From Acidithiobacillus caldus ATCC 51756 (GTDB lineage: Bacteria > Pseudomonadota > Gammaproteobacteria > Acidithiobacillales > Acidithiobacillaceae): 64,000 bases of DNA. The DNA lies in contig NZ_CP005986.1 in assembly GCF_000175575.2 (NCBI RefSeq), forward strand, positions 1 to 64,000, written 5' to 3'. Shown here piece after piece: positions 6,425-54,255 of the stretch. Numbering within the stretch: the stretch's first letter is position 1; the number at the start of each line of letters is the position of its first letter. The notes beneath the pieces are model-generated. The model was given only the letters and a program-made list of their open reading frames with translations, was not told where the DNA came from and did no database searches. A program made the position numbers and the translations under genes.

Positions 6425-6488
6425 CGATCGACTTTAGGATATACATACACAAGGCAGCCGTGCGCGTGTGCTGCCCGGGGGAGTCAAG

Positions 6489-36324: not shown

Positions 36325-37701
36325 GTGATCACCGATGTCGTCATCCTAGCCGCGGGCAAAGGCACGCGGATGCGCTCCGCCTTGCCCAAGGTCTTACAGG
36401 ACCTGGCTGGTCGCCCTCTGCTGGAGCACGTGCTGGAGAGCGCCCAGGCCCTTTCCGAGCTGCGCGAGCTTCATGTGGTACTTGGCCATGGAGCCGAGGC
36501 CGTTCGGGCCCGCTTCGAGGGCTGGAACCTCCACTGGTGGTTACAGGAAGGCCAGCGCGGCACGGGCGATGCCGTGGCCGCCGCCGCCGCGGGTTTTGCC
36601 GACGCCCAGCGTGTCTTGGTGCTCTATGGGGATGTTCCTCTGCTGCAAACTGAGACCTTGCAGGCGTTTCTGGACACTACGCCAGGTGACCAACTGGGCA
36701 TATTGACCGGTGTCCTTGCGGATCCTCGGGGCTACGGCCGGATGCTTAGGGATTCTGCCGATGCCATCGTGGGCATCCGCGAGGATCGGGACTGTCGCGA
36801 TGAGCGCGAGCGTGCCATCGTTGAGGTCAATCTCGGGGTGATGATCCTGCCCGTCGCGCCGCTGATGTCTTGGTTGGCGCGGCTGCAGCCCCACAATGCC
36901 CAGGGAGAAATCTACCTCACCGACGTCGTCGCTCTGGCCGTGGCGGACGGCGTCGAGGTTCGCGCCTTTGGCCTTGTCGATCCCAGTGAGGCGGCCGGCG
37001 TCAACGATCCCATCCAGCTCGAGGCCGTCGAGCGCCTTTATCAAAAGCGCCAACTGCAGCGTCTGATGCTGGCGGGATTACGGGTGCGCGACGCCAGTCG
37101 CGTCGATATCCGGGGTGCCTTTCGCTGCGGGACCGATTGCATACTGGATGTCAACGTCATCTGCGAGGGAAGGGTGCAGCTGGGTAACCGGGTGCGTGTC
37201 GGCGCCGGGGTCTTGCTCAAGGATGTTTCCGTGGACGACGATGTGGAGATCCTGCCCTATTCCGTCATTGATGGTGCGAACCTGGGTCCGGGGGCGCGCA
37301 TTGGGCCCTTCGCCCGGATCCGTCCCCACAGCGTCGTGGGTGCCGGGGCGCACATCGGCAATTTCGTAGAGGTGAAGGCGGTGGAGCTCGGTGCCGGCAG
37401 CAAGGCCAATCATCTCAGCTACCTGGGGGATGCGCGCATTGGCGCTGGCGTCAACGTGGGTGCCGGCGTGATCACCTGCAATTACGACGGCGCCAACAAG
37501 CACCGCACGGAAATCGGTGACGCGGTGTTCATCGGCTCCGATAGCCAGCTCATCGCGCCGTTGCGGGTCGGTAGCGGTGCGACCATTGGCGCGGGCAGCA
37601 CCATCACCCGTGACGTACCCGAGGGTGGCTTGAGCCTCAGTCGTAGCCCACAGCGATACGTCGCCCATTGGCAGCGGCCCGTCAAGAAAGCGAAGGATTA
37701 G
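36325..37701 (+). CDS. glmU: Bifunctional GlcNAc-1-P uridylyltransferase / GlcN-1-P acetyltransferase
   Basis: Makes UDP-GlcNAc, the precursor of peptidoglycan, LPS and probably Pel. The 458 residues comprise an N-terminal nucleotidyltransferase ([26 protein letters not shown]) and a C-terminal left-handed beta-helix acetyltransferase ([33 protein letters not shown]). GTG start with GGGGAGG upstream. Forms a pair with glmS. Confidence 0.98.
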
Positions 37702-37721
37702 ACAAGGAGCCAGACCAGACC

Positions 37722-39557
37722 ATGTGTGGAATCGTCGGTGGCGTAGCGGATGGCGATGTGTTGCCCCATATTCTCGAGGGATTGCGCCGTCTGGAATACC
37801 GCGGCTACGACTCCGCGGGGGTTGCGCTCGTCTCAGCGGCGGGCGGTATCGTGCGTCGGCGCAGCGTCGGCAGAGTCGCCGAGCTCAGCGCCCTCATCGC
37901 CCGCGACGCTCTCGCGGGCAGCATAGGTATCGGCCACACCCGTTGGGCGACCCACGGCGGAGTCGTCGAGCACAATGCCCATCCGCTCCTCTCGGGGGAG
38001 GACATTGCCGTCGTCCACAATGGCATCATTGAGAATTTCGCCGAGTTACGCCAGGAACTTCAGGCGCAAGGTTATGTCTTCAGCTCGGAAACGGACACCG
38101 AGGTCATCGCCCATCTGGTCCATCGCGAGCGATCCCGCCAGCCCGATCTGCTGAGCGCCTGTCGGGCCGCCATGGGTCAACTGCGCGGGGCCTTTGCGAT
38201 CGCTGTACTGAGTCGTAGCGATCCCGATCGTCTTTGCGTCGCTCGTATGGGCTGCCCGCTCTTGCTGGGACTGGCCGAGAGTGGCCAGTATTTTGCGTCC
38301 GATGTCGCTGCACTCCTGCCGGTGACCCGGCGAGTCGTGTATCTTGAGGACGGTGATCTGGCCGAAGTCACGCGCAGCGGTATTCGTATCGAGGATGCCC
38401 GTGGTCAGGTGGTCGCGCGCCAGGAACACTGGAGCCAGTTGAGCCCCGCAGCCATCGATCTTGGCCCGTATCGTCACTTCATGCAGAAAGAGATCCACGA
38501 GCAACCTCGGGCCATAGCCGACACCCTGGAGGGCGCCTTGCAGGGTCCCTTCTCTTTGCAGGATCTCTGGGGGCAGGATGCACGTGAACGCCTGGCGCAC
38601 GTGGAGCGTGTACTTTTTCTGGCCTCGGGTACTAGCCACTACGCGAGCCTGGTGGGGCGTCAGTGGGTCGAGACCATCGCCGGCATACCTGCCCATGCCG
38701 AGCTCGGGCACGAGTATCGCTATCGCGACTCCATTCCCAACCCAAACCAGCTCATCGTCACCTTGTCGCAGTCCGGCGAGACCCTCGATACCTGGGAAGC
38801 GCTGCGCCGGGCCAAGGATCTCGGGCACGAGGAGACTTTGTCCATCTGCAATGTGGCGGAAAGTGCCATCCCCCGGGCCTCGGCCCTACGCTTCATTACC
38901 CGGGCTGGGCCGGAAATCGGGGTCGCCTCCACCAAGGCCTTTACCACTCAGCTGGTGGCCCTCTACCTCCTGGCATTGTCTTTGGCCATTCTGCGCGGTC
39001 GCCTGGATGATGTGAGCCTCGCGCAGCACCTGGAGCACCTGCGCGAGTTGCCGGGTGGGGTGCAGCAGGCCCTCAACCTCGAACCGCAGATCCAGTTGTG
39101 GGCGCAGCGCTTTGCCGACAAGGATCACGCCCTTTTCCTGGGGCGCGGCCTGCATTACCCCATAGCTCTAGAAGGCGCCCTGAAGCTCAAGGAGATCTCC
39201 TACATCCATGCCGAAGCCTATCCTGCCGGTGAGCTGAAACACGGGCCCCTGGCTCTGGTGGATCAGCACATGCCGGTGGTGGTCATCGCGCCCAACGATC
39301 GCCTTCTGGAGAAGCTGGCCGCCAATATGCAGGAGGTGCGGGCGCGGGGAGGAGAGCTCTACGTCTTCGCCGATCTCGACAGCCATTTCGAGGCGGCGGC
39401 AGGTATCCACGTCATTCGACTGCCTCGCCACGCTGGACTGTTGTCGCCCGTTCTGCACGCGATCCCGGTACAGTTGCTCGCCTATCACGCGGCCTTGGTA
39501 AAAGGTACGGATGTCGATCGTCCCCGTAATCTTGCCAAAGCCGTGACGGTGGAGTGA
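37722..39557 (+). CDS. glmS: Glucosamine-6-phosphate synthase
   Basis: Glutamine:fructose-6-P aminotransferase, the first step to UDP-GlcNAc. The 611 residues start MCGIVGGV, so Cys2 is the glutaminase nucleophile. Two SIS sugar-isomerase domains follow ([32 protein letters not shown]), ending in the typical NLAKAVTVE. The start at 37722 is fixed by Cys2; AAGGAG is 12 bases upstream. No glmS ribozyme is apparent. Confidence 0.98.
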
Positions 39558-40021
39558 GGCGCGGCTCATCTCCGGTTCTGGTGATAATGGATAAAAAGAG
39601 GTGATCTTTAGCTGTGGTCCTTTTGGGGTGGTAATATTTTGGGACACTCAGCAATAAGGTCTCCTTTTGCGGTGGTGTGAAGCCACCGTCGCCGAATATT
39701 TGTACCAGCGCGGCGCCATTCCGTACATAATCACTCTAACCAATTGTCTGGAAATGCATTTCATCGCGAATAACCCTCTGCAGCAGGTGATTCCTTCGAA
39801 GATGACAGACCAATAAAAGCGGCGCCGATCCGCCCCTGCGCCAAATGTGCACGGTCTGAAGCCCTGGTGGTCGACTTCCTCCTCATCGGATACTGCAGAC
39901 CTTCATCGGCCCGTCCTTGCCCTGGCTCAAGACTGTGGGCATCATGAAACCATGTGGTCGGCTTACGCGTAGCAGGAGGGTATGTCGCACCTCTGCTCGC
40001 ATGGATCGGACATCTGAGGAG
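39558..40021. other. Long non-coding region before the pel operon
   Basis: A 464-base gap with lower GC than its surroundings. Contents seen: a perfect 6-bp stem CGGTGG/CCACCG with a 7-base loop (39670-39688), a CATAAT hexamer at 39726-39731 without a good -35, and a short ORF with a strong Shine-Dalgarno at 39982-40017. I do not recognise a c-di-GMP riboswitch or a sigma54 promoter here. It probably holds the pel promoter and its control sites. Confidence 0.5.
39982..40017 (+). CDS. Possible 11-codon leader peptide before pelA
   Basis: ATG at 39982 is preceded by AGGAGGG (39973-39979) and encodes MSHLCSHGSDI before TGA. The stop lies in TGAGGAG, which serves as ribosome site for pelA, so translation could be coupled. 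Too short to prove as a gene. Confidence 0.3.
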   Translation: MSHLCSHGSDI

Positions 40022-42775
40022 ATGCTATTGCAGCGAACACGGTGGTTGCGTTTTCTGACTTTCATGGTCCTGGCTGTCTGGGCGGGTCTCTCTTGGGCTG
40101 CGCCTGAGGATAGCCTGCCCAGTGTTGGGCTCTATTATGGTTCAGGACCGGCTCCCGCCGCCTTTCGCGATTTTCACTGGCTCGTCGTCAATCCGGGTGC
40201 AGAGCGCCTGCCCAGCGCCTTTCCGGGGCAGCAGGTCTTTGCCTACGTCAGTGTGGGCGAGACGGTTCCCGGCGACGCTCGCTACGCCCAATTGCCCCAA
40301 GATTGTGTTTTGGGCACGAACAGGAGCTGGGGAGGAAAGATCATCGATCTGGCCAAGTCGAGTTGCCGGGGCTACGTGCTGCACCAGGTGGTCGATCCTA
40401 TCTGGGCCCAAGGGTATCGGGGATTTTTTCTGGATACCCTCGACTCCTACGAGTCCGTGACCAAAGGTGCCGCCCGCCACGCCCAAGAAGAGGGCCTGGT
40501 GGATCTGATCAAAGCCCTGAAAACGGCGCATCCCGAAGCCAAACTCATCGCCAATCGTGGCTTCTCAGTACTCCCTGAGATCCATGGGGATCTGGTCGCG
40601 GTCCTGGCGGAATCCCTGTACCGAGGCTGGGATCAGGCTGAACATCGTTACACGGAAGTCCCGGAGAGCGAGCGTAGGGCTCTGCTGCGGGAATTGCACA
40701 AGGCCCAGGGCTTTGGCCTGCCCGTCGTCATTGTCGACTACATGCCGCCGGCGATGAACCGTTCCGGCTGGTGGGAGGATGCCCAGCGGATTCGTGCCGA
40801 CGGCTTCATTCCCTACGTCAGTAACCCCGAGCTCACGGCCGTTGGCGCCGGACTGCGGGAGCCCATGCCGCGCAAGGTACTGGTGCTTTACAACAGCACC
40901 CAACCGGAAGAATACAGCACGCCCTTTGCCAACGGCGCCATGCCTTTGGAATATCTGGGATATATCCCAGAATTTCGGCGGTTGTCCCAGGGAGTGCCGC
41001 CGCCCGTTCCGGGGGAGTATGCCGGAGTCATCTTCTGGAGCGATGGTGATCCGGTGGACGACGTTCCGGCGCTTTCGCACTGGATTCGTGAGGCCCGCGC
41101 CCAGGGGATTCCCATCCTGCTGTTGGGAGATTTTCAGAACGATCTGGATGCCAAGACCTTTGCCGCGTTGGGGATGATCGCGCCTCGCTCGGTGGATGCG
41201 ACTTCGGTTGAGCTCATCCATGCCGCAGCGGAGATGCAGTACGAGATGTCCATCACGCCCGATGCTCGGGACTTCCTTGCGGCACAGGCCCCCTCGGAGA
41301 GTCGGGTCTGGCTGCAACTACAGGCGGCCCATGGCGACCGGGAGGATGCCGCAGCCATAACCCCCTGGGGCGGATACGTCTTGAGCCCCTACCTCTTGAC
41401 GACACTGCCCAACAAGGACACGCGCTGGTTGGTCGATCCCTTCGCCCTGTATCGGCAGGCCTTTCGCCTACCCAAGATGCCGGTGCCCGATACCACCACC
41501 GAGAGTGGTCGGCGCCTCTTCATGGCGCACACGGATGGTGACGGATTCGTCAGCCGTGCCGACTTCCCTCCCTACCATATTGCGGGCCAGGTCTACATGG
41601 ATCGGATCCTGAAAAAGTACCGATTGCCCTTTACGGGTTCCGTCATCGTTGGCGACCTTCTGCCAGGGGATCGTGGCCTCTATCCCGCCCTTGCGCCGCT
41701 GGGTACCCAGGTGGCGCGGGAGCTGTTCCGGTTGCCCTATGTGGAAATCGGCTCGCACATGTGGTCCCATCCCTTTAACTGGCCGGCCATCGAAGCCGGT
41801 AAGGATTATCCCGGTATCAACTTGCCCGTGCCCGGTTATACGTTCAGCCCGTATATGGAGGCGGTGGGCGCTGCCAAGTGGATCGACAAACATCTGGCGC
41901 CGCCCGGAAAGCAGGTGGTGATCGATCAGTGGTCTGGCGACTGCGAACCCGATGCGCAGGTGGTGGGACTCGCCTACGGCGCCGGCCTGGAAAACATCAA
42001 TGGCGGCACCAGCTACATCAGCAAGAAAAATCCCAGCATCACTGCCGTACCGCCCATCGGCATCTTTCGCGGGAAATGGCTGCAGGTTTTTGCCCCGGAC
42101 GCCAATGAGGATTATTTCACCAATCAGTGGCATGGCCCCTACTGGGGTTACATCGACGTCATCCAGACCTTCGAGATGACGGACAAGCCGCACCGGCTCA
42201 AACCCATCGATATCTACACGCACTGGTACACGGCGACCAAGTTGGCTTCGCTGTCGGCACTGGAACGGGTCTACGACTGGGTACTGAAGCAGTCCATCAC
42301 GCCCGTCTATGTGGCGGACTATGCCAAGATCGCCAACAACTTCTTCACCATCCACATAGCTCGTCAGGGAGATGGGTTCTGGATCGGTGGCGCCAAGGTC
42401 TTGCAGGAGTTGCGTATGCCCAAGGATCTGGGCTACCCCAATCTTCTGCAAAGTCAGGGGATTGCTGGATACCATGCCACCCCCAACGGGCGCTGGTATG
42501 TGCACATGGATGGCCGGGACTCCACGTACCTCGCGCTACAGTCGACGCCGCCTCAGCCACCCTACATTGCCAGCGCCAACGCGGCCATTGCCGATTATCG
42601 ACAGGATGCCAGGGGCTTCTCTGCTGAGCTGGATGGCACGGTACCGGTGACGCTACGGCTGGGCAATGCCCAGGCCTGCCGTGCACGCATCAATGGCAAG
42701 CCGGCTGCCATCGGGGACTCTGGCGAAATCCGCAGCGACGCCGAGCATGTCCGTATCGATGTCCACTGCTCCTGA
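40022..42775 (+). CDS. pelA: Pel polysaccharide hydrolase/deacetylase PelA
   Basis: Periplasmic enzyme that deacetylates and cuts Pel polymer. The 917-residue protein has a signal peptide (FLTFMVLAVWAGLSWAAPED) and a GH166-like hydrolase domain with acidic residues at positions matching the known pair (D138 in FLDTLDS, E197 in LAESLYRG). A middle reductase-like domain follows, then a deacetylase domain with HTDGDGF (D505, D507) and SHMWSH (H579, H583) as metal/catalytic residues. P. aeruginosa PelA is about 948 residues. The start is ATG 40022 or TTG 40028, the latter having better spacing from GAGGAG. First gene of the pel operon. Confidence 0.95.
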   Translation: MLLQRTRWLRFLTFMVLAVWAGLSWAAPEDSLPSVGLYYGSGPAPAAFRDFHWLVVNPGAERLPSAFPGQQVFAYVSVGETVPGDARYAQLPQDCVLGTNRSWGGKIIDLAKSSCRGYVLHQVVDPIWAQGYRGFFLDTLDSYESVTKGAARHAQEEGLVDLIKALKTAHPEAKLIANRGFSVLPEIHGDLVAVLAESLYRGWDQAEHRYTEVPESERRALLRELHKAQGFGLPVVIVDYMPPAMNRSGWWEDAQRIRADGFIPYVSNPELTAVGAGLREPMPRKVLVLYNSTQPEEYSTPFANGAMPLEYLGYIPEFRRLSQGVPPPVPGEYAGVIFWSDGDPVDDVPALSHWIREARAQGIPILLLGDFQNDLDAKTFAALGMIAPRSVDATSVELIHAAAEMQYEMSITPDARDFLAAQAPSESRVWLQLQAAHGDREDAAAITPWGGYVLSPYLLTTLPNKDTRWLVDPFALYRQAFRLPKMPVPDTTTESGRRLFMAHTDGDGFVSRADFPPYHIAGQVYMDRILKKYRLPFTGSVIVGDLLPGDRGLYPALAPLGTQVARELFRLPYVEIGSHMWSHPFNWPAIEAGKDYPGINLPVPGYTFSPYMEAVGAAKWIDKHLAPPGKQVVIDQWSGDCEPDAQVVGLAYGAGLENINGGTSYISKKNPSITAVPPIGIFRGKWLQVFAPDANEDYFTNQWHGPYWGYIDVIQTFEMTDKPHRLKPIDIYTHWYTATKLASLSALERVYDWVLKQSITPVYVADYAKIANNFFTIHIARQGDGFWIGGAKVLQELRMPKDLGYPNLLQSQGIAGYHATPNGRWYVHMDGRDSTYLALQSTPPQPPYIASANAAIADYRQDARGFSAELDGTVPVTLRLGNAQACRARINGKPAAIGDSGEIRSDAEHVRIDVHCS

Positions 42776-43607
42776 GCGGGACGGGGAAGCGCGTGCGCAT
42801 CTCCTGCGCCCGGCAAGTCTGGCGGTATTCGCCATACTGGTTTGCGCCGTGGTATTTGCGGTGGCCTGGCAGTACGGATGGCGCGGTGGCCTGTCCTTCT
42901 ACGACTCCGCGGGAGATGCCCAGGCGCAACTGCAAGGTGCGGAACTGATGCTGCAAAGCGGCCAGTATGCCGCTGCCCTGAGGCAGATTGCTCCTATCTT
43001 GGCAAACAGCCAGAACCCGCGGTATCGCCAGGCCCGTCTTCTGCAATGGCAGATTGCGCGAACGCAGGCCTTGGCCATCCCGCCCCAATCGCCTCAACGT
43101 CGCCGGGCGCTCTCCCATCTGGTGCCCATCCTGGACGGTTTGCTCCGGCTGGGGGGCTGGACGCCGGCGCAGTGGCGCTCCCTGGCGCGGGACGCCGCTG
43201 CAGTGGGGGCCTACAGGCTGAGCGCGCGCTTCTGGACGGCGGCTGCCGCGACCGATCCAGGGTCTGCGCAGGAGGACCAGCGGCAGGCGGCTCGCGCTCT
43301 CGTGGCAGGGGGCGACCCCGCAGCGGGGGGGCAGATATTGTTGAACCTGGCCGCCGTGTCTGCGGACCCTGCGCAGCAAAGGTCCCTGTTTCTGCAGGGC
43401 GGAGCGTGGCTGGAGGGTGGGGCTGGTGCCGCCCTTGCCCTGACCCGTTGTGAGGCGATTCTCGCCCGCAAGCCATTACTTTGGCAGGATCGTACCATCG
43501 TCCTCTTCATGGCCCGGCTTGCCCTGGCCGCGGGCAAGCCCGATCTGGCTGCCCGGTGGCTGCACCGCGAACTGTTGCGGTCCGGCGGCGAGGAATCGTC
43601 GCGGTGA
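42747..43607 (+). CDS. PelB N-terminal part: membrane-anchored TPR protein
   Basis: First of three genes that together replace PelB. About 282-286 residues, from ATG 42747 or 42759, both inside the end of pelA. One membrane helix (LAVFAILVCAVVFAVAWQY) near the N-terminus leaves the rest in the periplasm as TPR-like helical repeats (AQLQGAELMLQSGQYAAAL). Pseudomonas PelB also begins with an inner-membrane helix and TPRs. The TGA stop overlaps the GTG of the next gene. Identity as PelB rests on order, topology and fold, not on sequence search. Confidence 0.75.
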   Translation: MSVSMSTAPERDGEARAHLLRPASLAVFAILVCAVVFAVAWQYGWRGGLSFYDSAGDAQAQLQGAELMLQSGQYAAALRQIAPILANSQNPRYRQARLLQWQIARTQALAIPPQSPQRRRALSHLVPILDGLLRLGGWTPAQWRSLARDAAAVGAYRLSARFWTAAAATDPGSAQEDQRQAARALVAGGDPAAGGQILLNLAAVSADPAQQRSLFLQGGAWLEGGAGAALALTRCEAILARKPLLWQDRTIVLFMARLALAAGKPDLAARWLHRELLRSGGEESSR

Positions 43608-45256
43608 GGTCCGGAATCTTCGTGCTCTGCTGTCTGTGTCTGCCCATCCTGGCCCAGGCACGGACCGTTACTGCCCCCGCAGATTGGTGGAAGGTGCCCG
43701 GGAGTCTCGCCTCCGACGATGCGCAGTGGCGTGCAAAGTATCTGCGCCAAAAGGAGGTTGCCAACGCCTTTGCTGCGGATTTGGAGCAAAGCCAGAAAAC
43801 CGGTAAGGGTATGCGTTATCTGGATCAGGGCGGCGAGTCCCCTTCCTGGTATGCCCCGCCTTTGGTCGTACAACCTTATCCCGGGCCTTACGCTTCCCGG
43901 CTCTACGATTTAGCCTGGAGTGCCTTTCTCCAGAGTCATCGGCTGCACGAGGCCTATCGCCTGGCCTACACCGCAGTGCAGTTGCGCCCGGAGGATCGGC
44001 AATGGCGCCAGCGCCTCATCCAGGTCGCTCTGTGGCTCGGGCAACGGGAGCAGGCTTTGACGCAGTGGACCTGGCTTGCCCAGCACGGGGACGCGGCCGC
44101 CACACAGCAAGCCGTCACCCTGGCCGTGAGTCTGTCGCGGCCGGACCTTGTGGTGCAGCTCTTGAGCCCTGCGGCGCGCGCCGGCACCCTCAGCGACGCC
44201 GACTGGAAATCCCTGATCTTTGCCTATGGGGAGCTGGGAGAGCCGGACAGAGCACTGCGCATCATCGACACTGCGCTACGGCGCGGTGGACCGCGCCGCT
44301 ACCTGCTGGAGCAGAAGGCCTATCTGAGCTACCAGCTCGGCGAGCTCCACCAAAGCTTATCGGCCTTGCAGCGTAGCGCCCAGATCTACGGCACCACCGT
44401 TCACATTGCCGTGGAGGAGGCACGCCTGCTCTCCATGCGCGGGGACTACCGCCTTGCCTTTCAGGCGCTGAAGCGTGCACGTACCGCGGCGACTCTGGAC
44501 GATGTGCCTTTCTGGCAGCTCTATGCCCTCCTGGCCTGGGAGATACACGACGATTCCGCCGCCTTCGCTGCCGAGAAAACCCTCTATTTGCTGGGCGCGG
44601 CCAGTAAGTATGATCTGCAACGACTGGTCCTTCTCAGTGGAAAAGAGAGCCCCGAGGCGGCCATGCACGTCGCCGAAGAGGGCTGGCGACGCTACCACCT
44701 GCCCTTGTTCTATTTCGAGGCGCTTTACTACGCCGGCGCCGCGCAACAATGGCAAACGCTCGGTGGCTTGTTGAACCAGGTTCCCGCCAACGACCCCGAT
44801 GGCATCCGTAACTATCCGGCCTACTGGATGGCCATGGGGCAGTGGGCCAGTGCCGAGGGCAACTTCGATGCTGCGGGGCGAGCCTACGCCGAGGTCTTGC
44901 ATCTCAACCCCGAGGACGAGCTGGCCCAGGTCAACCTCCTGTGGATGCTCATCGATCACGACCGGGTGGCTACCCTGCGCGCGCTCTTGGTCGGGGACGC
45001 CCTGCATCCTGCTCCGGGACTGCGGGATGCCGTCGCCAATGCCCTGGAACGCATGGGACGAAGCCGCTCGGCACTCTATCTGAATCTTGCTCCGGACCGG
45101 AGGGCGCGCGATGGTTCGCCCCGAGCTTTGCTCCAGCAGGCTGGCCTGTGGGCAGAGAGCGGCAGCTCGGGGATCGCCTGGTCGCAGCGGCAACAGGCAG
45201 CCCGGCTCAGTCTCGAAGCGCTGGAGCGCGGTGGTACGGGGGTAGTGCAGCCGTGA
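43604..45256 (+). CDS. PelB middle part: secreted periplasmic TPR protein
   Basis: A 550-residue exported TPR protein. The GTG start at 43604 overlaps the previous stop and follows GAGGAA by nine bases. A signal peptide (GIFVLCCLCLPILAQA) is read immediately, then about ten TPR-like helical pairs (RLAYTAVQLRPEDRQWRQ, AEVLHLNPEDELAQVNLLW). The middle of Pseudomonas PelB is a TPR scaffold that binds PelA; the same role is inferred. Its stop overlaps the next gene's GTG. Confidence 0.8.
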   Translation: MRSGIFVLCCLCLPILAQARTVTAPADWWKVPGSLASDDAQWRAKYLRQKEVANAFAADLEQSQKTGKGMRYLDQGGESPSWYAPPLVVQPYPGPYASRLYDLAWSAFLQSHRLHEAYRLAYTAVQLRPEDRQWRQRLIQVALWLGQREQALTQWTWLAQHGDAAATQQAVTLAVSLSRPDLVVQLLSPAARAGTLSDADWKSLIFAYGELGEPDRALRIIDTALRRGGPRRYLLEQKAYLSYQLGELHQSLSALQRSAQIYGTTVHIAVEEARLLSMRGDYRLAFQALKRARTAATLDDVPFWQLYALLAWEIHDDSAAFAAEKTLYLLGAASKYDLQRLVLLSGKESPEAAMHVAEEGWRRYHLPLFYFEALYYAGAAQQWQTLGGLLNQVPANDPDGIRNYPAYWMAMGQWASAEGNFDAAGRAYAEVLHLNPEDELAQVNLLWMLIDHDRVATLRALLVGDALHPAPGLRDAVANALERMGRSRSALYLNLAPDRRARDGSPRALLQQAGLWAESGSSGIAWSQRQQAARLSLEALERGGTGVVQP

Positions 45257-46770
45257 ACGCGCGTGACTATGGCTATGTCTTGATATCTGGATTGGGCGCC
45301 CTGTGGTACACCCCTGGGGCATTGGCGGCGGAGCCAGCGGCCGATGCCGCGGTAACGACGCCTTTTCGATCCCCGGTGACGATACCTTCTGCACCGTCCG
45401 AGGACGAAGCGCGCGCCGACAGCTCCCCAGTGGATGCTACGGGCGCCTTTTCCAGCGATCCCCTGCGCACTCTGGCCGAAAGCTTGTCTGCATCGCCCAG
45501 TCTCGGTGATGCCACCCGGCGGATACTCCTGGCTGAAGCTCGGCGAGGTGACTATCTCCCGGCCATCTCCTGGGCTTTGGGCCAGAGTTACTGGGGGCTC
45601 GCCCAGTTGCTCATCCAGAACAACCCCAAGCCCACTCCCGACTGGGCAAAGCTGAGCCTTGCCTTGCATCGTTACGATGGGCCGGAAATGGCGAGGCTAC
45701 TGCAACATCCAGAGCGCCTGCCGGCGCGCGATCGTCTCCAGGCACAGATGGATCTGGGGCGCTATGGGCAGGCACGAAAGGATGCCCTCGCGGCCATGGA
45801 GACGGATCCCTACGATTGGCGACTGCGTCGGGAATACCTGCAGGCGGTGCGTAAGAGCGCGAGTTACGTGGATCTCGCGGGTATCTGGCAGAGCTTCAAC
45901 GGCCTCAGTCAGTATGGTCCGCGACTGCGCGGCCGCCTGGCCTTGGGCGATGCCTGGGGGATCGAGCTCGACGCCGATGCCTTGCGCGAGGCGACCTCCC
46001 AAGCTGCGGGATTGCAGCGTCTGCCGGGCTGGAGTGAGCGCGCAGCCCTCGGACTCTATTGGCAAGCACCGGACTGGGAGATCCAGACCCTGGTGGGCAG
46101 TTACGAGGGCATGCGCAACCATCTGACCCTCGATCTCAAGGCCCGTTGGCAGATGTCTGCTGGCCGCGTGCTCTCGGGTACCGTGGAATACCATGGGCGC
46201 AGCCAGCAGAGCCCAGCGCTGGCCGTGGCGGGAATGGCGAGTGGCATACGCTTGCAGCTGATGCAGCAGGTGGGCGCCTGGACCGCGGGATTGGGCGCTG
46301 GCTGGCGGCAGTATCGGGGTCAGGACGGAGTCGACCTGGGCTCGGATCTCTTTGCTGGAGCCTCCCTGCTGTGGCGCCACGGCCTCGGTCCCTGGGAGCT
46401 CGAGGCCGGGCCCTTTGTCGACTATCACGATCTAAATCGACGAGGGCAAGTGCAGGGGCTGGTCGCCCAGACCCTGATTCCCTCAGCACGCACCATCGAT
46501 TCCGTTCTGCCCGGAAGCTACGGGGATGTGGGTTTGCGCCTGCAGTGGGGCCAGTGGGAGCGCGCCATCGACAGCAACTGGACGCCGTATCTCGCGCTCA
46601 GCGTCTACGACAACACCCGCTTTGGAATGCAGTATCAGCTGGATGCCGGAGTGAGTACTCCCGTTTTTGGGCCCGACCGTCTGCGCATCGGCTTTTCCCA
46701 GGGGCAGGGCGGTAATGGTCTGGCCATCAGCGAGCGCATCTTCAAGATGGCCTATCGCGTATATTTTTGA
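45253..46770 (+). CDS. PelB C-terminal part: TPR plus outer-membrane beta-barrel
   Basis: A 505-residue outer-membrane protein and likely Pel export pore. GTG 45253 is followed by a signal-like segment (YVLISGLGALWYTPGALAA), a Ser/Pro-rich linker, some helical repeats (about 75-235), and then alternating amphipathic strands with many Trp/Tyr and Gly residues ending in a C-terminal Phe (KMAYRVYF), as BAM substrates do. This is the barrel portion of PelB. Confidence 0.8.
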   Translation: MNARDYGYVLISGLGALWYTPGALAAEPAADAAVTTPFRSPVTIPSAPSEDEARADSSPVDATGAFSSDPLRTLAESLSASPSLGDATRRILLAEARRGDYLPAISWALGQSYWGLAQLLIQNNPKPTPDWAKLSLALHRYDGPEMARLLQHPERLPARDRLQAQMDLGRYGQARKDALAAMETDPYDWRLRREYLQAVRKSASYVDLAGIWQSFNGLSQYGPRLRGRLALGDAWGIELDADALREATSQAAGLQRLPGWSERAALGLYWQAPDWEIQTLVGSYEGMRNHLTLDLKARWQMSAGRVLSGTVEYHGRSQQSPALAVAGMASGIRLQLMQQVGAWTAGLGAGWRQYRGQDGVDLGSDLFAGASLLWRHGLGPWELEAGPFVDYHDLNRRGQVQGLVAQTLIPSARTIDSVLPGSYGDVGLRLQWGQWERAIDSNWTPYLALSVYDNTRFGMQYQLDAGVSTPVFGPDRLRIGFSQGQGGNGLAISERIFKMAYRVYF

Positions 46771-46787: not shown

Positions 46788-47324
46788 ATGAACTGGCGCT
46801 GGGTATTGGCTTCTGTGGGACTTTTGGCACTGCTGTCGGGCTGTGCCGGCATGGACCTGCGTACGGCAAAACCGCTGCCGAAGGCGCAGGATGTGGCTTG
46901 GGCGGTCCTGCCCTTTGCCAATAACACCGAAACACCCATGGCCAATGCCCGCGCTGCTGCCTTGGCCGCTGGCATCCTGCAGAGCGAAGGGCAGCGTGTG
47001 GTGGGCAGCCTCCCCGTCAGCACGCGCACGCAAGACCTGCTCGGCGGCGACTGGAAAAAGGAATACGCCGAGGCCTTGACGGCGGCCAGAAGCGATGGCG
47101 CTCGTTATGCCTTGGCGGGAAGTGTGGACGAGTGGACCTACCGAGCGGGCATCAATGCCGAACCGGAAGTGGCTATGACCCTCTGGGTGGTGGATGTTGC
47201 CAAGGATCGCGTGGTCTGGAGTGGGGTCGGGAGTGCTCACGGTGGTAGCCTTGGACGGAGCGGCACCGGCGGCGTGGCCCAGCGTCTGATGCAGCGGCTC
47301 CTGGATCGTGCTTTGAACCGCTGA
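46788..47324 (+). CDS. pelC: Pel outer-membrane lipoprotein PelC
   Basis: Lipoprotein that in Pseudomonas forms a dodecameric ring guiding cationic Pel to the PelB pore. The 178 residues have a lipobox ending LLSGC (Cys19) and a short alpha/beta domain (WAVLPFANNTETPMANARA). AAAGGAGG upstream is the strongest ribosome site of the operon, fitting the high copy number of PelC. Confidence 0.93.
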   Translation: MNWRWVLASVGLLALLSGCAGMDLRTAKPLPKAQDVAWAVLPFANNTETPMANARAAALAAGILQSEGQRVVGSLPVSTRTQDLLGGDWKKEYAEALTAARSDGARYALAGSVDEWTYRAGINAEPEVAMTLWVVDVAKDRVVWSGVGSAHGGSLGRSGTGGVAQRLMQRLLDRALNR

Positions 47325-47326
47325 GC

Positions 47327-48610
47327 ATGCGTCTGCTGACATCCATCCCCCGCTGGCGGGAGGGCTGGCTGGAGGCAATCCTCCTACCTGCCCTGGTCCT
47401 CGTCCTCACGCACTTCCTGGCCCCCCAGGATCCGTTGCTGTTGCAGCAGCCTTTCCCTTGGCTCATCCTGGTGCCATTGCTCATCGCCCTGCGTTACGAG
47501 TTCCTGCCTGGCGCTGTCGCCGCGCTGATCCTCGCTGCGGTCACCTGGTGGCATCCCTATCCCAGCACCACCTTGCTTCCCGACGCTGCCGGAACGCTCC
47601 TGGTGACGCTCATCGCCGCCGAGTATGCCGCGTATTGGTCGCGGCGCGAGGTGGACCGGGCCCTGCAGGAAAAAATTACCGCTACTCGCTTACGGCAGTT
47701 GGCGGACGATCTGTACGTCACCCGGACCTCTCTGGACCGGCTAGAACAAAGTCTCGTGTATCAGCCGGTGTCCATACGCAGTGCTCTGGAGGAATTGCGC
47801 CAAGACCTGCGTCGGGGAAAAGGCGAGATGGACGCCCCCCTGCTGGAGAAGATGCTGTACTTCCTGAACCAGCTGGCCGGGGTGCAAGTGGCGTCCTGGT
47901 ATCGCTGGGAGGCGGGGGCCGCTGAGCCTCGCCGCCTGGCAAGCTTTGGTCCGGTGGCAGAATGGGATGGTGGCGATCCTGTCGCCCGGGCGGCGCTCGC
48001 CGAGGGGCGCAGTCAGCAGCTGGCCGACCTGCAAGTGGAGCGCATTCAGCGGTATTTGAGTGTGCACCTCAACGGTGAGCCGGGTCAGGATCGTCATATG
48101 CTCTGCATTGAGGACATGACCTTTTTCGCCATTACCTTCGAGAGTATCCAGATTATCGAGGTTTTCTTTCAGTATCTTTGTCACTATCGGGATGGCTGTG
48201 TCCATGCTCAGGAACTGCTATCCCGCTGGCCAGACTGCCCCGTGGATTTCGCTGTGGATTTTTTGCAGCTGCGTCGCCTGGCAGGGATCGTCCCCCAGCC
48301 TGGAGTCTGTCAGAGCTTTGTTTTTCGCGCCGGCAGGGAAGCCCGGGAGATCGCGGACAAGATCCAGAAACTGCGCCGCGGACTGGATGTCTTTTGGGTA
48401 CACGAGGATGGCGAATATCTGCGTGTGCTGACCTTGTTACCCTTTGCCGGTACCACCGCTGCCGAGGGACAGAGGGCGCGGGTGGAGGCAGAGTTACAGA
48501 GGTGTTGCGCCGGGCTTTGGCAGAGCGCCTTTCTGGGCGCGGACTTCATGCGCATCGATGCACGTCCAGCGGCGGAGCAGCTGGCCCATTGGCTGGGATC
48601 GCGCCCTTGA
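47327..48610 (+). CDS. pelD: Pel c-di-GMP receptor PelD
   Basis: Inner-membrane c-di-GMP receptor that switches on Pel synthesis. The 427 residues have four N-terminal membrane segments (about 15-100), a coiled-coil stalk (105-160), a GAF domain and a degenerate GGDEF domain. The inhibitory-site motif RxxD is kept as RGLD (R351-D354); P. aeruginosa uses R367/D370. No catalytic GGDEF is present. It overlaps pelE by TTGA. Confidence 0.93.
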   Translation: MRLLTSIPRWREGWLEAILLPALVLVLTHFLAPQDPLLLQQPFPWLILVPLLIALRYEFLPGAVAALILAAVTWWHPYPSTTLLPDAAGTLLVTLIAAEYAAYWSRREVDRALQEKITATRLRQLADDLYVTRTSLDRLEQSLVYQPVSIRSALEELRQDLRRGKGEMDAPLLEKMLYFLNQLAGVQVASWYRWEAGAAEPRRLASFGPVAEWDGGDPVARAALAEGRSQQLADLQVERIQRYLSVHLNGEPGQDRHMLCIEDMTFFAITFESIQIIEVFFQYLCHYRDGCVHAQELLSRWPDCPVDFAVDFLQLRRLAGIVPQPGVCQSFVFRAGREAREIADKIQKLRRGLDVFWVHEDGEYLRVLTLLPFAGTTAAEGQRARVEAELQRCCAGLWQSAFLGADFMRIDARPAAEQLAHWLGSRP

Positions 48611-49515
48611 TACGCTGGCTTCTGCTCGATACGGCGCTTTCGCTAATGGCGACGATCGTGGCCAGTTACGTGGTGCCCGTGACTCGGCCCAAGGGTCGGC
48701 GTCTGGCGGTGCTCCTCTTTGCCCTGTTGTGTCTCGTCCTACCCTACGTCGGTGCGGTCTTGACCTTGGTCTACGCCGTCGCCCTGCGCTCCGTTGTGCA
48801 CCGTACTGGCGAAGCCGAGGTAGAGCCCATCCGCCTGCCGCCGCCCGCTCGGGATTTTCGTTTGCGCTCCATCAACCTGACCCCGGGAGCCATTGCCGCC
48901 CGTATGCGTGGCTCCCGGGATCCGCAGCAACGGGTAGAGGCGCTATCTCAAGTCATGGGTTCCCGTTTTGCCGACGAGATCCGCTTGCTGCGTAACGCAC
49001 TGCGTGACGAAGCCGAGGAGGTACGTCTGCTGGCCTACGCTGCGCTGGATCGGCGAGAACAGGAAAACACCGATATGCTCATCGATCTGCAGCGGCGCAT
49101 TGCCGGATCCGCGGACGAAGCCCGGGTCGGGAGGCTCCAAGAGTATCTGGCCTGGCTGCGCTGGAACATCGATCATTCCGTTTCTCAGGAGATAGCTGAA
49201 CCCGTGGTGCGTCTCGACGATGTTCGTGGGCCGGCCCCCACGGTGGGCGCCCAAACGCCGGCCGCGGAGCCGCCTTTCTTGCAGGGTCTCCGTGCCCTGG
49301 AGCACGGTGAGGCGAACCTGGCCCTTGCCCACTTCGCGTCTGCGCGCGGCCAGGGCATCGCCGCCGCTGTCCTCGCCCCCCATGAGGCCGCTGCACACTT
49401 TCTTCGCCGTGATCTTGGGGCTTTGCGGGAACTCTACCGCAAGCACCCGGAACTTTCCGTTTCTCCCCGTTATGGTCCTTCCCACCGATTCTGGCAGGGA
49501 GCAGAGCGCGGATGA
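48607..49515 (+). CDS. pelE: Pel biosynthesis membrane protein PelE
   Basis: Inner-membrane component of the synthase complex that interacts with PelD and PelG in Pseudomonas. The 302 residues start at a TTG overlapping the pelD stop, have two membrane helices (about 2-20, 32-55) and a helical HEAT/TPR-like cytoplasmic region. P. aeruginosa PelE is 329 residues. It overlaps pelF by four bases. Confidence 0.85.
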   Translation: MIRWLLLDTALSLMATIVASYVVPVTRPKGRRLAVLLFALLCLVLPYVGAVLTLVYAVALRSVVHRTGEAEVEPIRLPPPARDFRLRSINLTPGAIAARMRGSRDPQQRVEALSQVMGSRFADEIRLLRNALRDEAEEVRLLAYAALDRREQENTDMLIDLQRRIAGSADEARVGRLQEYLAWLRWNIDHSVSQEIAEPVVRLDDVRGPAPTVGAQTPAAEPPFLQGLRALEHGEANLALAHFASARGQGIAAAVLAPHEAAAHFLRRDLGALRELYRKHPELSVSPRYGPSHRFWQGAERG

Positions 49516-51005
49516 GAGATAAAACGGCGGAATCCACCGATATCCTATTGCTACTCGAGGGGACCTTTCCCTACGTCCGCGGCGGGGTTTCGTCCTGGGT
49601 CAAGCGGATCATCGAGGGTTTTCCCAAGCGACGTTTCGGGATCATTTTCCTGGGTAGCGCAAAATCCGATTACCGTCTTGGCGAGGCTTACGCTCTACCC
49701 GACAATGTCGATTATTTTGCCGAATATTTTCTTTACGATGCATCGGCAAGCCACGCCAAAGCGTCTTCAGCTATGGGGCGGATCGATGTGGATGGCATCG
49801 ACGGCGCGCATCGCCAGATGAGGTCCTGCCTGCGTGGAGAGGCCTTTCCCATGGAGGATATGGATCTCGCGGAAAACTTTGGCGTCAGTCCGGAGGCGTT
49901 TTTCCATGCACCGGCCATCTGGGACTACTTTTTGCAGCGCTATGCAGAGATTCCAGATCAACCCCCTTTTGTGGATTATTTTTGGACCATACGCGGAATG
50001 CATGGACCGCTGTGGATTTTGCAGAGGGCCGTGCAAGCTGCGCCGCGGGCAAAACTCCTGCTGTCTCCCTCCACGGGTTACGCTGGTTTTCTGGGCGCCC
50101 TGCTGTCTAGCCGACAGGATCGACCCCTCCTTATTTCCGAGCACGGAATCTATACCAAGGAAAGGCGCATCGATCTGATGCTTGCGCGCTGGATTCACGA
50201 GGACGACGAGTTCCTCCGTCGACCTGGACAGATTCACTATTTGCGCCAGCTCTGGATCCATTTTTTTGAGTTTCTCGGGCGCCTGGCGTATCAGCAGGCA
50301 TGGCGCATTCTGAATCTGTACGAAGGGGTGATTCCTCTACAACTGGCGGGGGGCGCGCCACCAGAAAAGCTGCTCACCATACCCAATGGGATTGACGTGG
50401 AACGTTTCGTCGCTGCCCGGCGTCCTTTTCTTCAGCGCGAAGACGTGGTAGCGCTCATCGGTCGCGTCGTTCCCATAAAGGATATCAAGACCTTTATCCG
50501 GGCTGCGGCGATCCTGCACGCTCGCGGCCGCAATACCGTGTTCTGGATCGTCGGGCCAACGGAAGAGGACGAGGAGTATTACGCCGAGTGTCGGGTGTTG
50601 GTAGAACACCTCGGTCTGCAGGATCGTGTCCAGTTTCTGGGTTTTCGCTCGGTATCCGAGGTGTTGATGACCGTCCGCTTGACGGTTCTGAGTTCCATCA
50701 GCGAGGGATTGCCCCTGTCGGTGCTCGAGAGTGTTGCCGCTGGGGTGCCCGTCGTTGCCACCGACGTCGGCTCGTGTCGGGAACTGGTTTATGGCGCCCA
50801 ACCCACGGTCGAGGAACCGGCGGGGATCATCGTTCCCATCGCCGATCCCGCCGCACTTGCCGGGGCTATGATCGCCTTACTGGACAGCGAGGAGCGTTGG
50901 AATCTTTGTAGCCACAACGCCGTTATCCGGGTTGAGAGGCATTACCGGGAAGAGCAGATGTTTGCGCGTTACGGCGACCTCTTCGATCAGGTCATGACGG
51001 AGTAG
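49512..51005 (+). CDS. pelF: Pel glycosyltransferase PelF
   Basis: Cytosolic GT4-family, UDP-dependent glycosyltransferase that polymerises Pel. The 497 residues begin with LLLEGTFPYVRGGVSSWVK and carry GT4 motifs GRVVPIKDIKTFIRAA and EGLPLSVLESVAAGVPVVAT (the E-x7-E pair). P. aeruginosa PelF is 507 residues. The DNA here is visibly more T-rich than the housekeeping genes. Confidence 0.95.
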   Translation: MRDKTAESTDILLLLEGTFPYVRGGVSSWVKRIIEGFPKRRFGIIFLGSAKSDYRLGEAYALPDNVDYFAEYFLYDASASHAKASSAMGRIDVDGIDGAHRQMRSCLRGEAFPMEDMDLAENFGVSPEAFFHAPAIWDYFLQRYAEIPDQPPFVDYFWTIRGMHGPLWILQRAVQAAPRAKLLLSPSTGYAGFLGALLSSRQDRPLLISEHGIYTKERRIDLMLARWIHEDDEFLRRPGQIHYLRQLWIHFFEFLGRLAYQQAWRILNLYEGVIPLQLAGGAPPEKLLTIPNGIDVERFVAARRPFLQREDVVALIGRVVPIKDIKTFIRAAAILHARGRNTVFWIVGPTEEDEEYYAECRVLVEHLGLQDRVQFLGFRSVSEVLMTVRLTVLSSISEGLPLSVLESVAAGVPVVATDVGSCRELVYGAQPTVEEPAGIIVPIADPAALAGAMIALLDSEERWNLCSHNAVIRVERHYREEQMFARYGDLFDQVMTE

Positions 51006-51007: not shown

Positions 51008-52378
51008 ATGGCTGGGATCGGTTTTGAATTACGGCGTATTCTCCGGCGCGGAAGTTATCTAGCGATGATGGAGGCCTATGGGTATGCCGGCGTGGTATCG
51101 TCGGGCCCGTGGCTGTTGTCCATATTCGGTATCCTATTGCTGGGATTTCTGGCAATCGGCGATCATACTGCGCGTGCGTCGGTCATCCAGTTCCAGGTTT
51201 CCGTGACTTATCTGATTGCGGTTTCCCTGATACTCACCGGTCCCTTGCAGCTCCTCTTCACGCGCTACATTGCGGATATGCTCTTTGCGCGACAGACGCG
51301 ATCGGTCGTGACGGTCCTGCTCACCATGCTGATCACGGCACTCGTTCCCGGCACCATCTTTGCGGTGGCTGCGCTACTGCTTTTCTTCAGGGCAACGCCA
51401 TGGCTTTACCAGGTGCTCATGGCCATGGCATTTATCGAGCTTTGTGGTGTTTGGGTTTTGACGATCATGGGCACCAGCCTCAAGGATTACAAGGCCCTGG
51501 TTAGCTGGTATCTGTTCGCCTACGCAACGGTGGTCGCCCTGGGCCTGTTTCTGGGGCGGCGCTTTGGTCTGGACGGCTACATGCTGGCATTCGTACTCGG
51601 TCAGGGGATCTTACTCCTGGGTCTTGGGACACTGGTGATCCGCCAGTTCCCGGGCTTCGTGCAGTGGCCCGAGCACCGCGGCCTCCGCTGGTACTGGTCC
51701 CTCGCCCTGGTGGGCACCGCTTTCAATTTGGCTGTTTGGACGGATAAATTCTGGTTCTGGTTTTCTCCGGCAACCAGTGCTGCGATCATCGGTCCGCTGC
51801 GGGCTTCGCCCATCTACGATGTTCCGATTTTTCTTAGTTATCTTTTGATCGTGCCAGGTCTCGCGGTGTTCCTCTTTCGCCTGGAAACGGATTTTGTGGA
51901 GGCCTACGATGCATACAATCGGGCCATCATCGACGGTGGCACCTACGAAGAACTGAAGAGTGCCAAGTTGCGCATGCTGCTTGCGACGCGTTCCGGTCTT
52001 GGGGACATCGCCAAGGTCCAGGGAGTCACGGTGCTGTTGGCTTTTGCTTTCACCCAGCCCCTCCTTGCGCTTTTGGGTTACTCCAGCAGCTACGCCCGCA
52101 TTTTTCAATTTGACGTCATCGGTGTAAGTCTGCAGCTTTTGTTGATGAGTCTTCTGAATGTCTATTTTTATCTGGATCTGCGTGGTCGTAGCGTCCTGCT
52201 GACGCTCACTTTTCTCTTGGGCAACGTTATCTTCACCGGGATGACCCTCTGGGCCGGGCCGTTCTTTTATGGCTTGGGCTTTCTGGCATCACTTTTTGTG
52301 GCGGATCTGCTCGGGCTCTATTTTTTATCCCGGGATCTGGAAAGAATCGATTATTTGACTTTCATGCGTGCTCAGTGA
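51008..52378 (+). CDS. pelG: Pel polysaccharide membrane transporter PelG
   Basis: Polytopic MOP/Wzx-like inner-membrane protein that moves Pel across the membrane with PelD-PelE-PelF. The 456 residues start MAGIGFELRRILRRGSY and show about 12 membrane segments, matching PelG length. Two bases after pelF; overlaps the epimerase reading frame. Confidence 0.95.
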   Translation: MAGIGFELRRILRRGSYLAMMEAYGYAGVVSSGPWLLSIFGILLLGFLAIGDHTARASVIQFQVSVTYLIAVSLILTGPLQLLFTRYIADMLFARQTRSVVTVLLTMLITALVPGTIFAVAALLLFFRATPWLYQVLMAMAFIELCGVWVLTIMGTSLKDYKALVSWYLFAYATVVALGLFLGRRFGLDGYMLAFVLGQGILLLGLGTLVIRQFPGFVQWPEHRGLRWYWSLALVGTAFNLAVWTDKFWFWFSPATSAAIIGPLRASPIYDVPIFLSYLLIVPGLAVFLFRLETDFVEAYDAYNRAIIDGGTYEELKSAKLRMLLATRSGLGDIAKVQGVTVLLAFAFTQPLLALLGYSSSYARIFQFDVIGVSLQLLLMSLLNVYFYLDLRGRSVLLTLTFLLGNVIFTGMTLWAGPFFYGLGFLASLFVADLLGLYFLSRDLERIDYLTFMRAQ

Positions 52379-52386
52379 GGATCCAT

Positions 52387-53334
52387 GTGAAAGACCAGCA
52401 TAAAAGTATTCTGGTGATCGGAGGCGCTGGTTTCATCGGCTCTCATACCGTCGACCTGCTTTTGCAGGAGGGTCATCGCGTACGGGTGCTGGATAATTTC
52501 TCCAGCGGGCGAAAAGAAAATTTGCCATGGGAGCATCCGCATCTGGAAATCGTTTCTGGAGACCTGGAGGATGGCGTGTTGCTGGAACGGGCTTTTGACC
52601 AGGCACAAGCCGTCCTCCACTTGGCGGCACAGGTGTCCGTGCAGCGAAGCCTGGAGGATCCGCTTGGCTCTTGCCGGCAGAATATCCTGAACTTCGTGCG
52701 CGTGCTGGAGCAGGCGCGTCGACATGGCACACGCGTGGTATACGCCTCGTCGGCTGCCGTTTATGGGGATCCGGAGGTTTTGCCTGTGGACGAGCAGGCC
52801 CCTGTTCGCCCGGTATCTCCCTACGGTCTGGAAAAATACAGCAACGAACTCTACGCAGAACTCTACGGGCGGATACATGGCCTCTCGCATCTGGGTCTGC
52901 GCTATTTCAATGTGTATGGTCCGCGGCAAGATCCGGGCTCTCCGTATAGTGGGGTCATTTCCCGCTTTGTGGATCAGATCCGTAAGGGGCAGGCCCTGAC
53001 GGTACGCGGGGATGGTCTCCAGGGGCGGGATTTCATCCACGTCGCCGACGTAGCACGAGCCAATCTGGCTGCCTTGTTCGCCTCTCTGTGTGGCGTGGTC
53101 AATATTGCTGGCGGGCAAGTAACGACCGTCCGGCGGCTGGCCGAGCTCATCATTGAACTCCACGGAGGCAAAGGATCGATTGAGGGCGTTCCACCCCTCC
53201 CCGGTGACATTCGCCATTCCCGGTCAGATATTGGCCGCATGCAACAGTTCCTGATCGCGCCGGGAATCCCCCTGGATCAAGGTCTGCAGGATTTGCTGGA
53301 TGGGGGTATGAGTCGCGCACGCAGCGTCGGATAG
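52387..53334 (+). CDS. NAD-dependent UDP-sugar epimerase (PelX/WcaG-like)
   Basis: Extended SDR enzyme, probably UDP-GlcNAc/UDP-Glc 4-epimerase. The 315 residues have the NAD motif GGAGFIGSH, YASSAAVYGDP, and SPYGLEK with the Tyr-x3-Lys pair. GTG 52387 follows TGAGGA at five bases; GTG 52375 overlapping the pelG stop is the alternative. Pel is made from GalNAc/GlcNAc; in some Pseudomonas pel clusters PelX, a UDP-GlcNAc C4-epimerase, supplies UDP-GalNAc. The same role is inferred from position; substrate specificity is not visible. Confidence 0.85.
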   Translation: MKDQHKSILVIGGAGFIGSHTVDLLLQEGHRVRVLDNFSSGRKENLPWEHPHLEIVSGDLEDGVLLERAFDQAQAVLHLAAQVSVQRSLEDPLGSCRQNILNFVRVLEQARRHGTRVVYASSAAVYGDPEVLPVDEQAPVRPVSPYGLEKYSNELYAELYGRIHGLSHLGLRYFNVYGPRQDPGSPYSGVISRFVDQIRKGQALTVRGDGLQGRDFIHVADVARANLAALFASLCGVVNIAGGQVTTVRRLAELIIELHGGKGSIEGVPPLPGDIRHSRSDIGRMQQFLIAPGIPLDQGLQDLLDGGMSRARSVG

Positions 53335-53511: not shown

Positions 53512-54255
53512 ATGGAATACATCGATTCGGCGGTGATGGAGGCGCTACTGGCGAATGGCGAGGCGTTTCGGCAGAAGCGGCCTTATCCCTATGCCAGTAT
53601 CCAGGGATTTCTGAGGGAAGACGCCTTTGCCACGCTCTGCCGCGAGTCACCCAGTCCCGAGGATATGCAGCAGGAAAAGCGGCGCCGTGCGCACGGTCAG
53701 CAGACGCACGAGCGTCTCAGTTTGCAGGTGGTGCCAGCCGTGGAAGATCGATTGTCCAGCCATTGGCGGAACTTTTTGGCGGAGTTGCGCAGTCCGGCCT
53801 ACCTCGATTTCTGGCGGCAGATGCTGGGGCTGTCGCGACGCAGCCCAGTGCTTTTGAGCATGCACTGGCACTATGCGCCGGCAGGGGCGTCGGTATCACC
53901 GCACACCGATGCGCGGCGCAAACTGGGCTCACACATCTTTTACCTCAATACCCCGGCGGACTGGCAGGAAGACTGGGGCGGCCAAACCCTGGTGTTGGAC
54001 GACGGGGGACGCTTTCCGCGGCATTCGGCGCCCGGGTACGAGGATCTCGAACTGGTAGCTGCCTCGACGGTGCTGGGTAACCGTAGCTTTCTGTTCGCCC
54101 AGACCGACCATTCGTGGCACGCGGTGCGCGAACTGCGCAACCCCCCGGGTCATTTGCGCAAGGTGTTCATCGTGGTGGCCAACCGCCTGTCCTTTCAGGT
54201 CCTCTCTCGGCGTTTGCGGGGGAAGGATCCGGACGGTTTCCGGCTGCGCGGATGA
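53512..54255 (+). CDS. 2OG-Fe(II) oxygenase family protein
   Basis: A 247-residue cytoplasmic protein with the double-stranded beta-helix signature of prolyl-hydroxylase-like dioxygenases: iron ligands H131 and D133 (SPHTDARR) and H203 (HSWHAV), with R216 positioned to bind 2-oxoglutarate. The substrate is unknown. It lies 177 bases after the pel epimerase, same strand, overlapping the reading frame before the SIMPL gene. No clear ribosome site is seen. Confidence 0.85.
   Translation: MEYIDSAVMEALLANGEAFRQKRPYPYASIQGFLREDAFATLCRESPSPEDMQQEKRRRAHGQQTHERLSLQVVPAVEDRLSSHWRNFLAELRSPAYLDFWRQMLGLSRRSPVLLSMHWHYAPAGASVSPHTDARRKLGSHIFYLNTPADWQEDWGGQTLVLDDGGRFPRHSAPGYEDLELVAASTVLGNRSFLFAQTDHSWHAVRELRNPPGHLRKVFIVVANRLSFQVLSRRLRGKDPDGFRLRG

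Follow-up and report, generated by a model that had tools for sequence, protein, structure and literature searches.

In the first 64,000 nucleotides (nt) of contig NZ_CP005986.1 of Acidithiobacillus caldus ATCC 51756 (hereafter the window; all features described lie on its forward (+) strand), three consecutive open reading frames (ORFs) stand between pelA and pelC of the pel operon, the position held by the single export scaffold gene pelB in Pseudomonas aeruginosa, and their sequences support the view that together they correspond to one PelB. Elsewhere PelB is one long protein through which Pel, a biofilm polysaccharide, crosses the envelope. The three-ORF arrangement was confirmed. B1 (pelB part 1; 42747..43607) encodes 286 amino acids (aa), or 282 with the in-frame ATG at 42759 as start, and has an N-terminal membrane helix followed by tetratricopeptide repeat (TPR)-like hairpins. 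B2 (part 2; 43604..45256) encodes 550 aa comprising a signal peptide, a conserved N-terminal insert and a TPR array, and B3 (part 3; 45253..46770) encodes 505 aa comprising a signal peptide, a variable linker, a repeat- or alpha-rich region and an outer-membrane barrel, with ...MAYRVYF as its C-terminus and Phe as the final residue. Each ORF ends at its own stop codon, and the parts do not lie on one polypeptide. The B1 stop and B2 start share the sequence GTGA at 43604..43607, as do the B2 stop and B3 start at 45253..45256; such overlap is by itself nothing special about PelB, because pelA and B1 also overlap (29 nt), as do pelG and the epimerase gene that follows it (4 nt). The N-termini of B2 (VRSGIFVLCCLCLPILAQA) and B3 (VNARDYGYVLISGLGALWYTPGALAA) are both signal-peptide-like, and among the seven ATGA or GTGA sites with at least 45 open codons in 42747-46770 only the starts of these two genes passed our signal-peptide rule. 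The original prediction, made from this DNA alone, is borne out in its anatomy: it had three genes of about 282, 550 and 505 residues, a GTGA overlap at each junction, fresh signal peptides after the junctions that random frameshifts would not create, and a third product forming a barrel and ending in Phe.

Homology to PelB was assessed with hhalign, in which profiles of B1 (18 rows), B2 (16 rows) and B3 (14 rows) were each set against one built from 13 one-piece PelBs. The numbering reference was the 1176-aa PelB of genome G460, whose numbers run 5-6 below those of P. aeruginosa PelB over approximately 207-803. B1 13-280 aligned to PelB 6-278 (99.3% probability, E 9.8e-21), B2 94-535 to PelB 277-718 (100% probability) and B3 99-505 to PelB 771-1174 (99.9% probability); these best matches are collinear and do not overlap, leaving a sole gap at about 718-771. 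B3 carries the PelB C-terminal beta-barrel PF24604 at 45853..46764 (E 1.8e-52, profile positions 2-309). This is the one PF24604 match in the window genome, and a second pelB elsewhere in that genome was ruled out, there being no further barrel match. B2 matched TPR_15 in Pfam (E 4.2e-47), and its residues 110-463 matched residues 299-651 of P. aeruginosa PelB (9h80_M) in phmmer (E 1.8e-21), and its hhalign and phmmer matches both indicate homology of its repeats to the TPR scaffold of PelB. B1 has the N-terminal inner-membrane helix and first TPRs expected of PelB, the helix probably remaining uncleaved; in Pfam it gave TPR matches below threshold only and nothing over the cut-off. Single-sequence searches of B1 and B3 against solved structures gave no match at E up to 1, and profiles were therefore required for these two parts. 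Modelling with AlphaFold2 confidently predicted a TPR-type fold for B1 (mean predicted local distance difference test (pLDDT) 84.4; a long helix at 13-45, then paired helices); its top Foldseek matches include TPR domains, at low template modelling (TM) scores, and only two matches reach E 0.001 or better. The same type of fold was weakly predicted for B2 (two sequences; mean pLDDT 66.8, with values under 50 over most of the insert and the C-terminus; Foldseek matches to generic TPR proteins at low TM-scores). The collinear tiling and the barrel in B3 thus support the earlier proposal that B1 and B2, as TPR proteins, and B3, as a protein of repeats and barrel, would jointly make up one PelB, and the check attached to that proposal, a match of the first two parts to PelB TPRs, came out in its favour through the profile matches and, less firmly for B2, the predicted folds.

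In P. aeruginosa PelB (1193 aa; PDB 9h80, 5wft), an inner-membrane helix at 1-36 is followed by TPR1-19 at 69-726, an alpha-rich region and a barrel at 876-1193 (PMC12022489). Helix, TPRs with the PelA site, neck and barrel follow in the same order along B1-B3, whereas the P. aeruginosa protein is one polypeptide and the window has three, two of them with their own signal peptides. On this scale the first cut falls at about residue 284, upstream of the PelA-binding repeats (PelA needs and binds TPR9-14; PMC12022489), and the second close to where the TPR array ends, in the interval from about 724 to 777. The PelA site, PelB 332-436, corresponds to approximately B2 143-247 in the phmmer alignment. 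B1 would accordingly hold the anchor and first repeats, B2 the putative PelA site, and B3 the putative PelC-docking neck with the barrel, around which PelC forms a ring in P. aeruginosa. A published construct of PelB 762-1193 behind a foreign signal peptide, which reaches the outer membrane of Escherichia coli and binds PelC (PMC12141448), covers approximately the segment represented by B3.

Relatives have the same arrangement, and this speaks against chance or assembly error as its source. B2 was present in 18 of 29 genomes in a family search, the PelB barrel in 19 of 31 in an order search (all 19 in Acidithiobacillaceae), and a genome contig search gave a match to B3 in one named relative, Acidithiobacillus sp. 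KMB_Bin03. B1 is split from B2 with a 4-nt overlap in all 17 Acidithiobacillaceae loci covering that junction, window included, and also in G118 and G789 of other families. B2 is split from B3 in 17 of the 18 family loci covering the second junction, window included, the exception being G144; no continuous pelB was found in these loci, in keeping with the split as first proposed. The overlap in the 17 loci is 4 nt in 12 (window included) and 8 nt in five (ATGAATAA), and the commonest junction form is ATGA, not GTGA. The 4-nt B2/B3 overlaps of G154 and G157a were taken from a separate reading (the start-finding pass gave no start for G154), and in G169, where an N run crosses B3, the start was set from the sequence match. 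Since a 4-nt overlap, present at both junctions in most loci, places the downstream frame at -1, a programmed -1 frameshift could in principle yield one continuous PelB. Such a product would bury a signal peptide within the scaffold, the spacing varies (4- or 8-nt overlap, and a gap of 4-5 nt in two of 12 two-piece loci described below), and no slippery heptamer was seen by eye at the two window junctions, where no dedicated search was made; we consider frameshifting highly improbable.

Export signals and codon substitutions were compared across the same genes. The signal-peptide rule is crude and was controlled with 1081 other starts in these genes: it was passed by 18/18 B2 and 15/17 B3 starts, by 72 of the 1081 controls, and by all 13 starts in a second set (the twelve two-piece B2B3 frames and G789 B2). 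In the window operon 33 of 278 starts passed, true starts included. The median anti-Shine-Dalgarno pairing before B3 is clear, being matched by 3% of background. The ratio of nonsynonymous to synonymous substitution rates (dN/dS) could be computed for 20 of the 21 gene pairs compared and lay at 0.07-0.28; the remaining pair gave no computable dS, and in four others dS exceeded 1, close to saturation. Judged by these substitution patterns, the parts are under purifying selection, and the split is maintained. Broken pelB genes do occur in some relatives (G675, G775 and G788), as they would if the window held a decaying or mis-assembled pelB; with identical cuts in many genomes, low dN/dS and signal peptides at both junctions, that explanation retains next to no probability. 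A random frameshift or pseudogene was ruled out by conservation, dN/dS and the signal peptides.

Immediately after its signal peptide, B2 carries a conserved insert of about 70 residues (43664..43882; WWK.PGSL...) that lies outside the one-piece PelB profile match. The strict motif WWxxPGxL was found in 17 of 18 B2 N-termini, in none of 13 one-piece PelBs and in one of 20 further loci (the three-piece G789). We suggest that the insert may serve to dock or cap B2 at its free end. The N-termini of B3 vary in length and sequence.

Forms with fewer pieces were found in wider samples. The barrel exceeded the cut-off in 17 of 369 genomes sampled class-wide, comprising seven one-piece, five two-piece and two three-piece loci (the window and G160), one with B2 and B3 fused (G118), and two interrupted by a contig start (G100 and G761). 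A phylum-wide sample, sharing some genomes with the first, gave 16 of 398: 13 one-piece loci and the window, plus G528 with a short form and G372 as a contig fragment. In the orders of four two-piece genomes the barrel was present in 3/5, 1/2, 10/57 and 2/10 genomes (centres included). Altogether, a two-piece PelB was found in 12 loci, each in a different genome, in four families other than Acidithiobacillaceae. B1 stands alone there and is followed by one frame running from a signal peptide through TPRs and neck to barrel (B2B3), with a 4-nt overlap at the junction in ten loci (in G787 only with a TTG start) and a gap of 4-5 nt in two. A two-piece B1 profile, built without G675 and G775 from the other ten of the 12 loci, gave probabilities of 100% to one-piece PelB 10-280 and of 99.6% to three-piece B1; matching both forms, it identifies the same B1/B2 cut, which is therefore not special to Acidithiobacillaceae, the two-piece form being present in four other families. 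The same bridging profile bears on whether pelA and a shortened pelB (B3) have been separated by the insertion of two unrelated TPR proteins, B1 and B2, a view to which the general likeness of TPR arrays and the missing Pfam match of B1 lend something; given also the collinear, non-overlapping tiling on one-piece PelB, and a next-best register of B1 that reaches 12% at most, we hold it to be very unlikely. Two further loci differ in form. In G788 (L145) a barrel fragment stands alone before pelC. G528 (L090, oriented ~4211-6876) has a reduced pel locus in which a short PelA-like, hydrolase-type ORF precedes a short PelB with barrel; this PelB has its own signal-peptide-like start, no B1- or B2-like gene was seen upstream, and the stretch gave no PelC match.

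To trace the history of the cuts, a midpoint-rooted PelA tree was used, with 48 rows (18 one-piece, 12 two-piece, 16 three-piece and 2 re-fused). Left out of it were G166 (PelA below 600 aa), G528 (short PelA) and G788 (no PelA match, barrel piece alone); G169 and G157a (PelA off that contig piece; G157b was included); G761, G100 and G372 (contig edge) and G329 (barrel below cut-off); G786 and G779 (barrel at contig start); and G607, G106, G674, G080 and G574 (below cut-off). Loci L096 (G155) and L097 (G153, second contig) were outside the analysis. All split loci fall on one side of a branch with support 100/98, and the three-piece and re-fused loci group together with support 100/100. The B1/B2 cut requires one change on this tree and the B2/B3 cut three, for which the best reading is a single gain with two losses (re-fusions). 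If the midpoint is the true root, the number of pieces would have risen from one through two to three. The re-fused G118 and G144 are placed among three-piece relatives. G144 is a clean re-fusion of B2 and B3: compared with its siblings G147, G154 and G157, the junction, signal peptide and linker are gone and the frame continues, an in-frame loss that fits B2 and B3 being adjacent segments of one scaffold. In G118 the two parts are fused through a longer linker without signal peptide, in which no frame-shifted signal-peptide relic was seen by eye in three frames. No re-fusion of B1 was seen among the loci read. G118 (L042) and G789 (L146), from other families, have three-piece-type loci that sit within the PelA clade of Acidithiobacillaceae, and these pel loci were likely transferred between families.

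Taken together, these observations make it probable that PelB here is made as three proteins, each translated and Sec-exported on its own, which come together non-covalently as one scaffold, the cuts having been made sequentially. The first fission (B1|B2B3) would date from an ancestor that other gammaproteobacterial families share and the second (B2|B3) from the lineage of Acidithiobacillaceae, and B2 and B3 would later have been re-fused twice. The stop/start overlaps would couple translation of B1, B2 and B3, and Sec would export each part. B1 would be held in the inner membrane by its uncleaved helix, its first TPRs receiving polymer from PelDEFG; B2, a soluble periplasmic TPR protein with the PelA-binding repeats, would join B1 and B3 non-covalently while holding PelA; and B3 would be inserted in the outer membrane, its alpha-rich neck docking the PelC ring and its barrel serving as the pore. 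Several points weigh against this. Expression, localisation and interaction of B1-B3 are predictions from sequence, and the mutant work in A. thiooxidans, consisting of pelD deletion and pel transcription (PMC5852609, PMC7825692), demonstrates a working pel locus in which PelB was not probed. The signal-peptide rule missed B3 of G165 and G166, where a hydrophobic stretch follows a long start, and it fires on 17 of 18 B1 helices and so cannot separate anchors from cleaved signals. Pairing before B2 is weak, 24% of background being as strong as the B2 median, and two of the 12 two-piece loci, both in one family (G675 and G775; L119 and L148), have broken reading frames. The PelA tree includes six long-branched rows, two long rows that meet, and 15 rows of odd composition.

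It is also possible, if rather less plausible, that the parts are not fixed at 1:1:1 and form no standing bridge, B1 staying with the synthase, B2 acting as a mobile carrier with PelA, and B3 with PelC being a stand-alone pore. The covalent link between inner and outer membrane is gone, the conserved N-terminal insert of B2 is absent from the scanned one-piece PelBs and two-piece loci, the N-termini of B3 are variable, and the short PelB of G528 has its own start with no B1/B2-like gene seen before it, all of which would suit such a relay; the two B2-B3 re-fusions and the tight overlaps suggest instead that B2 and B3 still act side by side and in similar amounts. Only tentatively, then, might Pel be exported in this lineage without a covalent envelope bridge, through a relay of three subunits (synthase-side B1, PelA-carrying B2 and PelC-ringed pore B3), and with the same reserve, stepwise fission with gained signal peptides and a docking segment, later partly reversed, might allow chain delivery, deacetylation and pore opening to be uncoupled and set independently. 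For the non-covalently rebuilt scaffold, the re-fusions favour adjacency of B2 and B3.

Fission of pelB as such has already been named in the literature. The legend to Fig 5(iii) of a 2020 survey of pel operons mentions 'pelB fission' in 'aquatic thermophilic species' (PMC7112194); the section concerned gives no species, piece number, signal peptides, cut positions or history, and Acidithiobacill as a text string is absent from the main text. The available portions of the two A. thiooxidans pel papers (PMC5852609, PMC7825692) make no mention of a split pelB, and a literature search with most subscription journals outside its reach found no description of PelB pieces. Separate scaffold and pore, as in B2 and B3, are known from alginate, where the TPR lipoprotein AlgK and the barrel AlgE are thought to form one export complex (PMC9734138). 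The window differs in that B3 keeps a pre-barrel neck, a third, inner-membrane part is present, and the polysaccharide is another one. Nor does the N-terminus of B2 (VRSGIFVLCCLCLPILAQARTV) contain, by eye, an AlgK-type lipobox ([LVI][ASTVI][GAS]C). BcsC (cellulose) and PgaA (poly-N-acetylglucosamine) resemble the PelB parts in combining a TPR scaffold with a barrel for a synthase-dependent polysaccharide. To our knowledge, each of these is one polypeptide without an inner-membrane anchor. The split PelB bears on whether synthase-dependent exporters depend on an unbroken bridge from one membrane to the other: here the bridge is cut twice near domain boundaries, the parts are under purifying selection, and B2 and B3 have been re-joined in two lineages. 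It offers ready-made separable subunits and a natural test of which joins matter, as well as a tree-ordered example of gene fission where every newly made piece comes with an export signal of its own.

The surrounding genes are those of a pel operon. Upstream, pelA (39917..42775) encodes a GH114-type hydrolase/deacetylase (PF03537, E 1.4e-16) homologous to PelA of one-piece pel loci; its true start is probably downstream of the listed TTG. Downstream of B3, the lipoprotein gene pelC (46791..47324) was assigned by its position and by the homology of its product to the PelC proteins of one-piece loci (identity up to 42%); the product also gave a weak LpoB match. It is followed by pelD (47327..48610), encoding the cyclic di-GMP receptor (PF16963 PelD_GGDEF, E 1.4e-37), a putative pelE at about 48610-49515, the glycosyltransferase gene pelF (49512..51005; NCBIfam PelF NF038011, E 2.7e-165), pelG (51008..52378), encoding the inner-membrane exporter (PF16933 PelG, E 5.2e-142), and a UDP-sugar 4-epimerase gene (52375..53334; PF01370, E 7.7e-60; TIGR01179 galE, E 8.4e-48, under its curated cut-off). 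Directly upstream of pelA, the ORFs at 36325-39557 presumably encode GlmU and GlmS, for amino-sugar precursor supply. Just past the epimerase gene, the ORF at 53512-54255 resembles, by eye, a 2-oxoglutarate/Fe(II) oxygenase.

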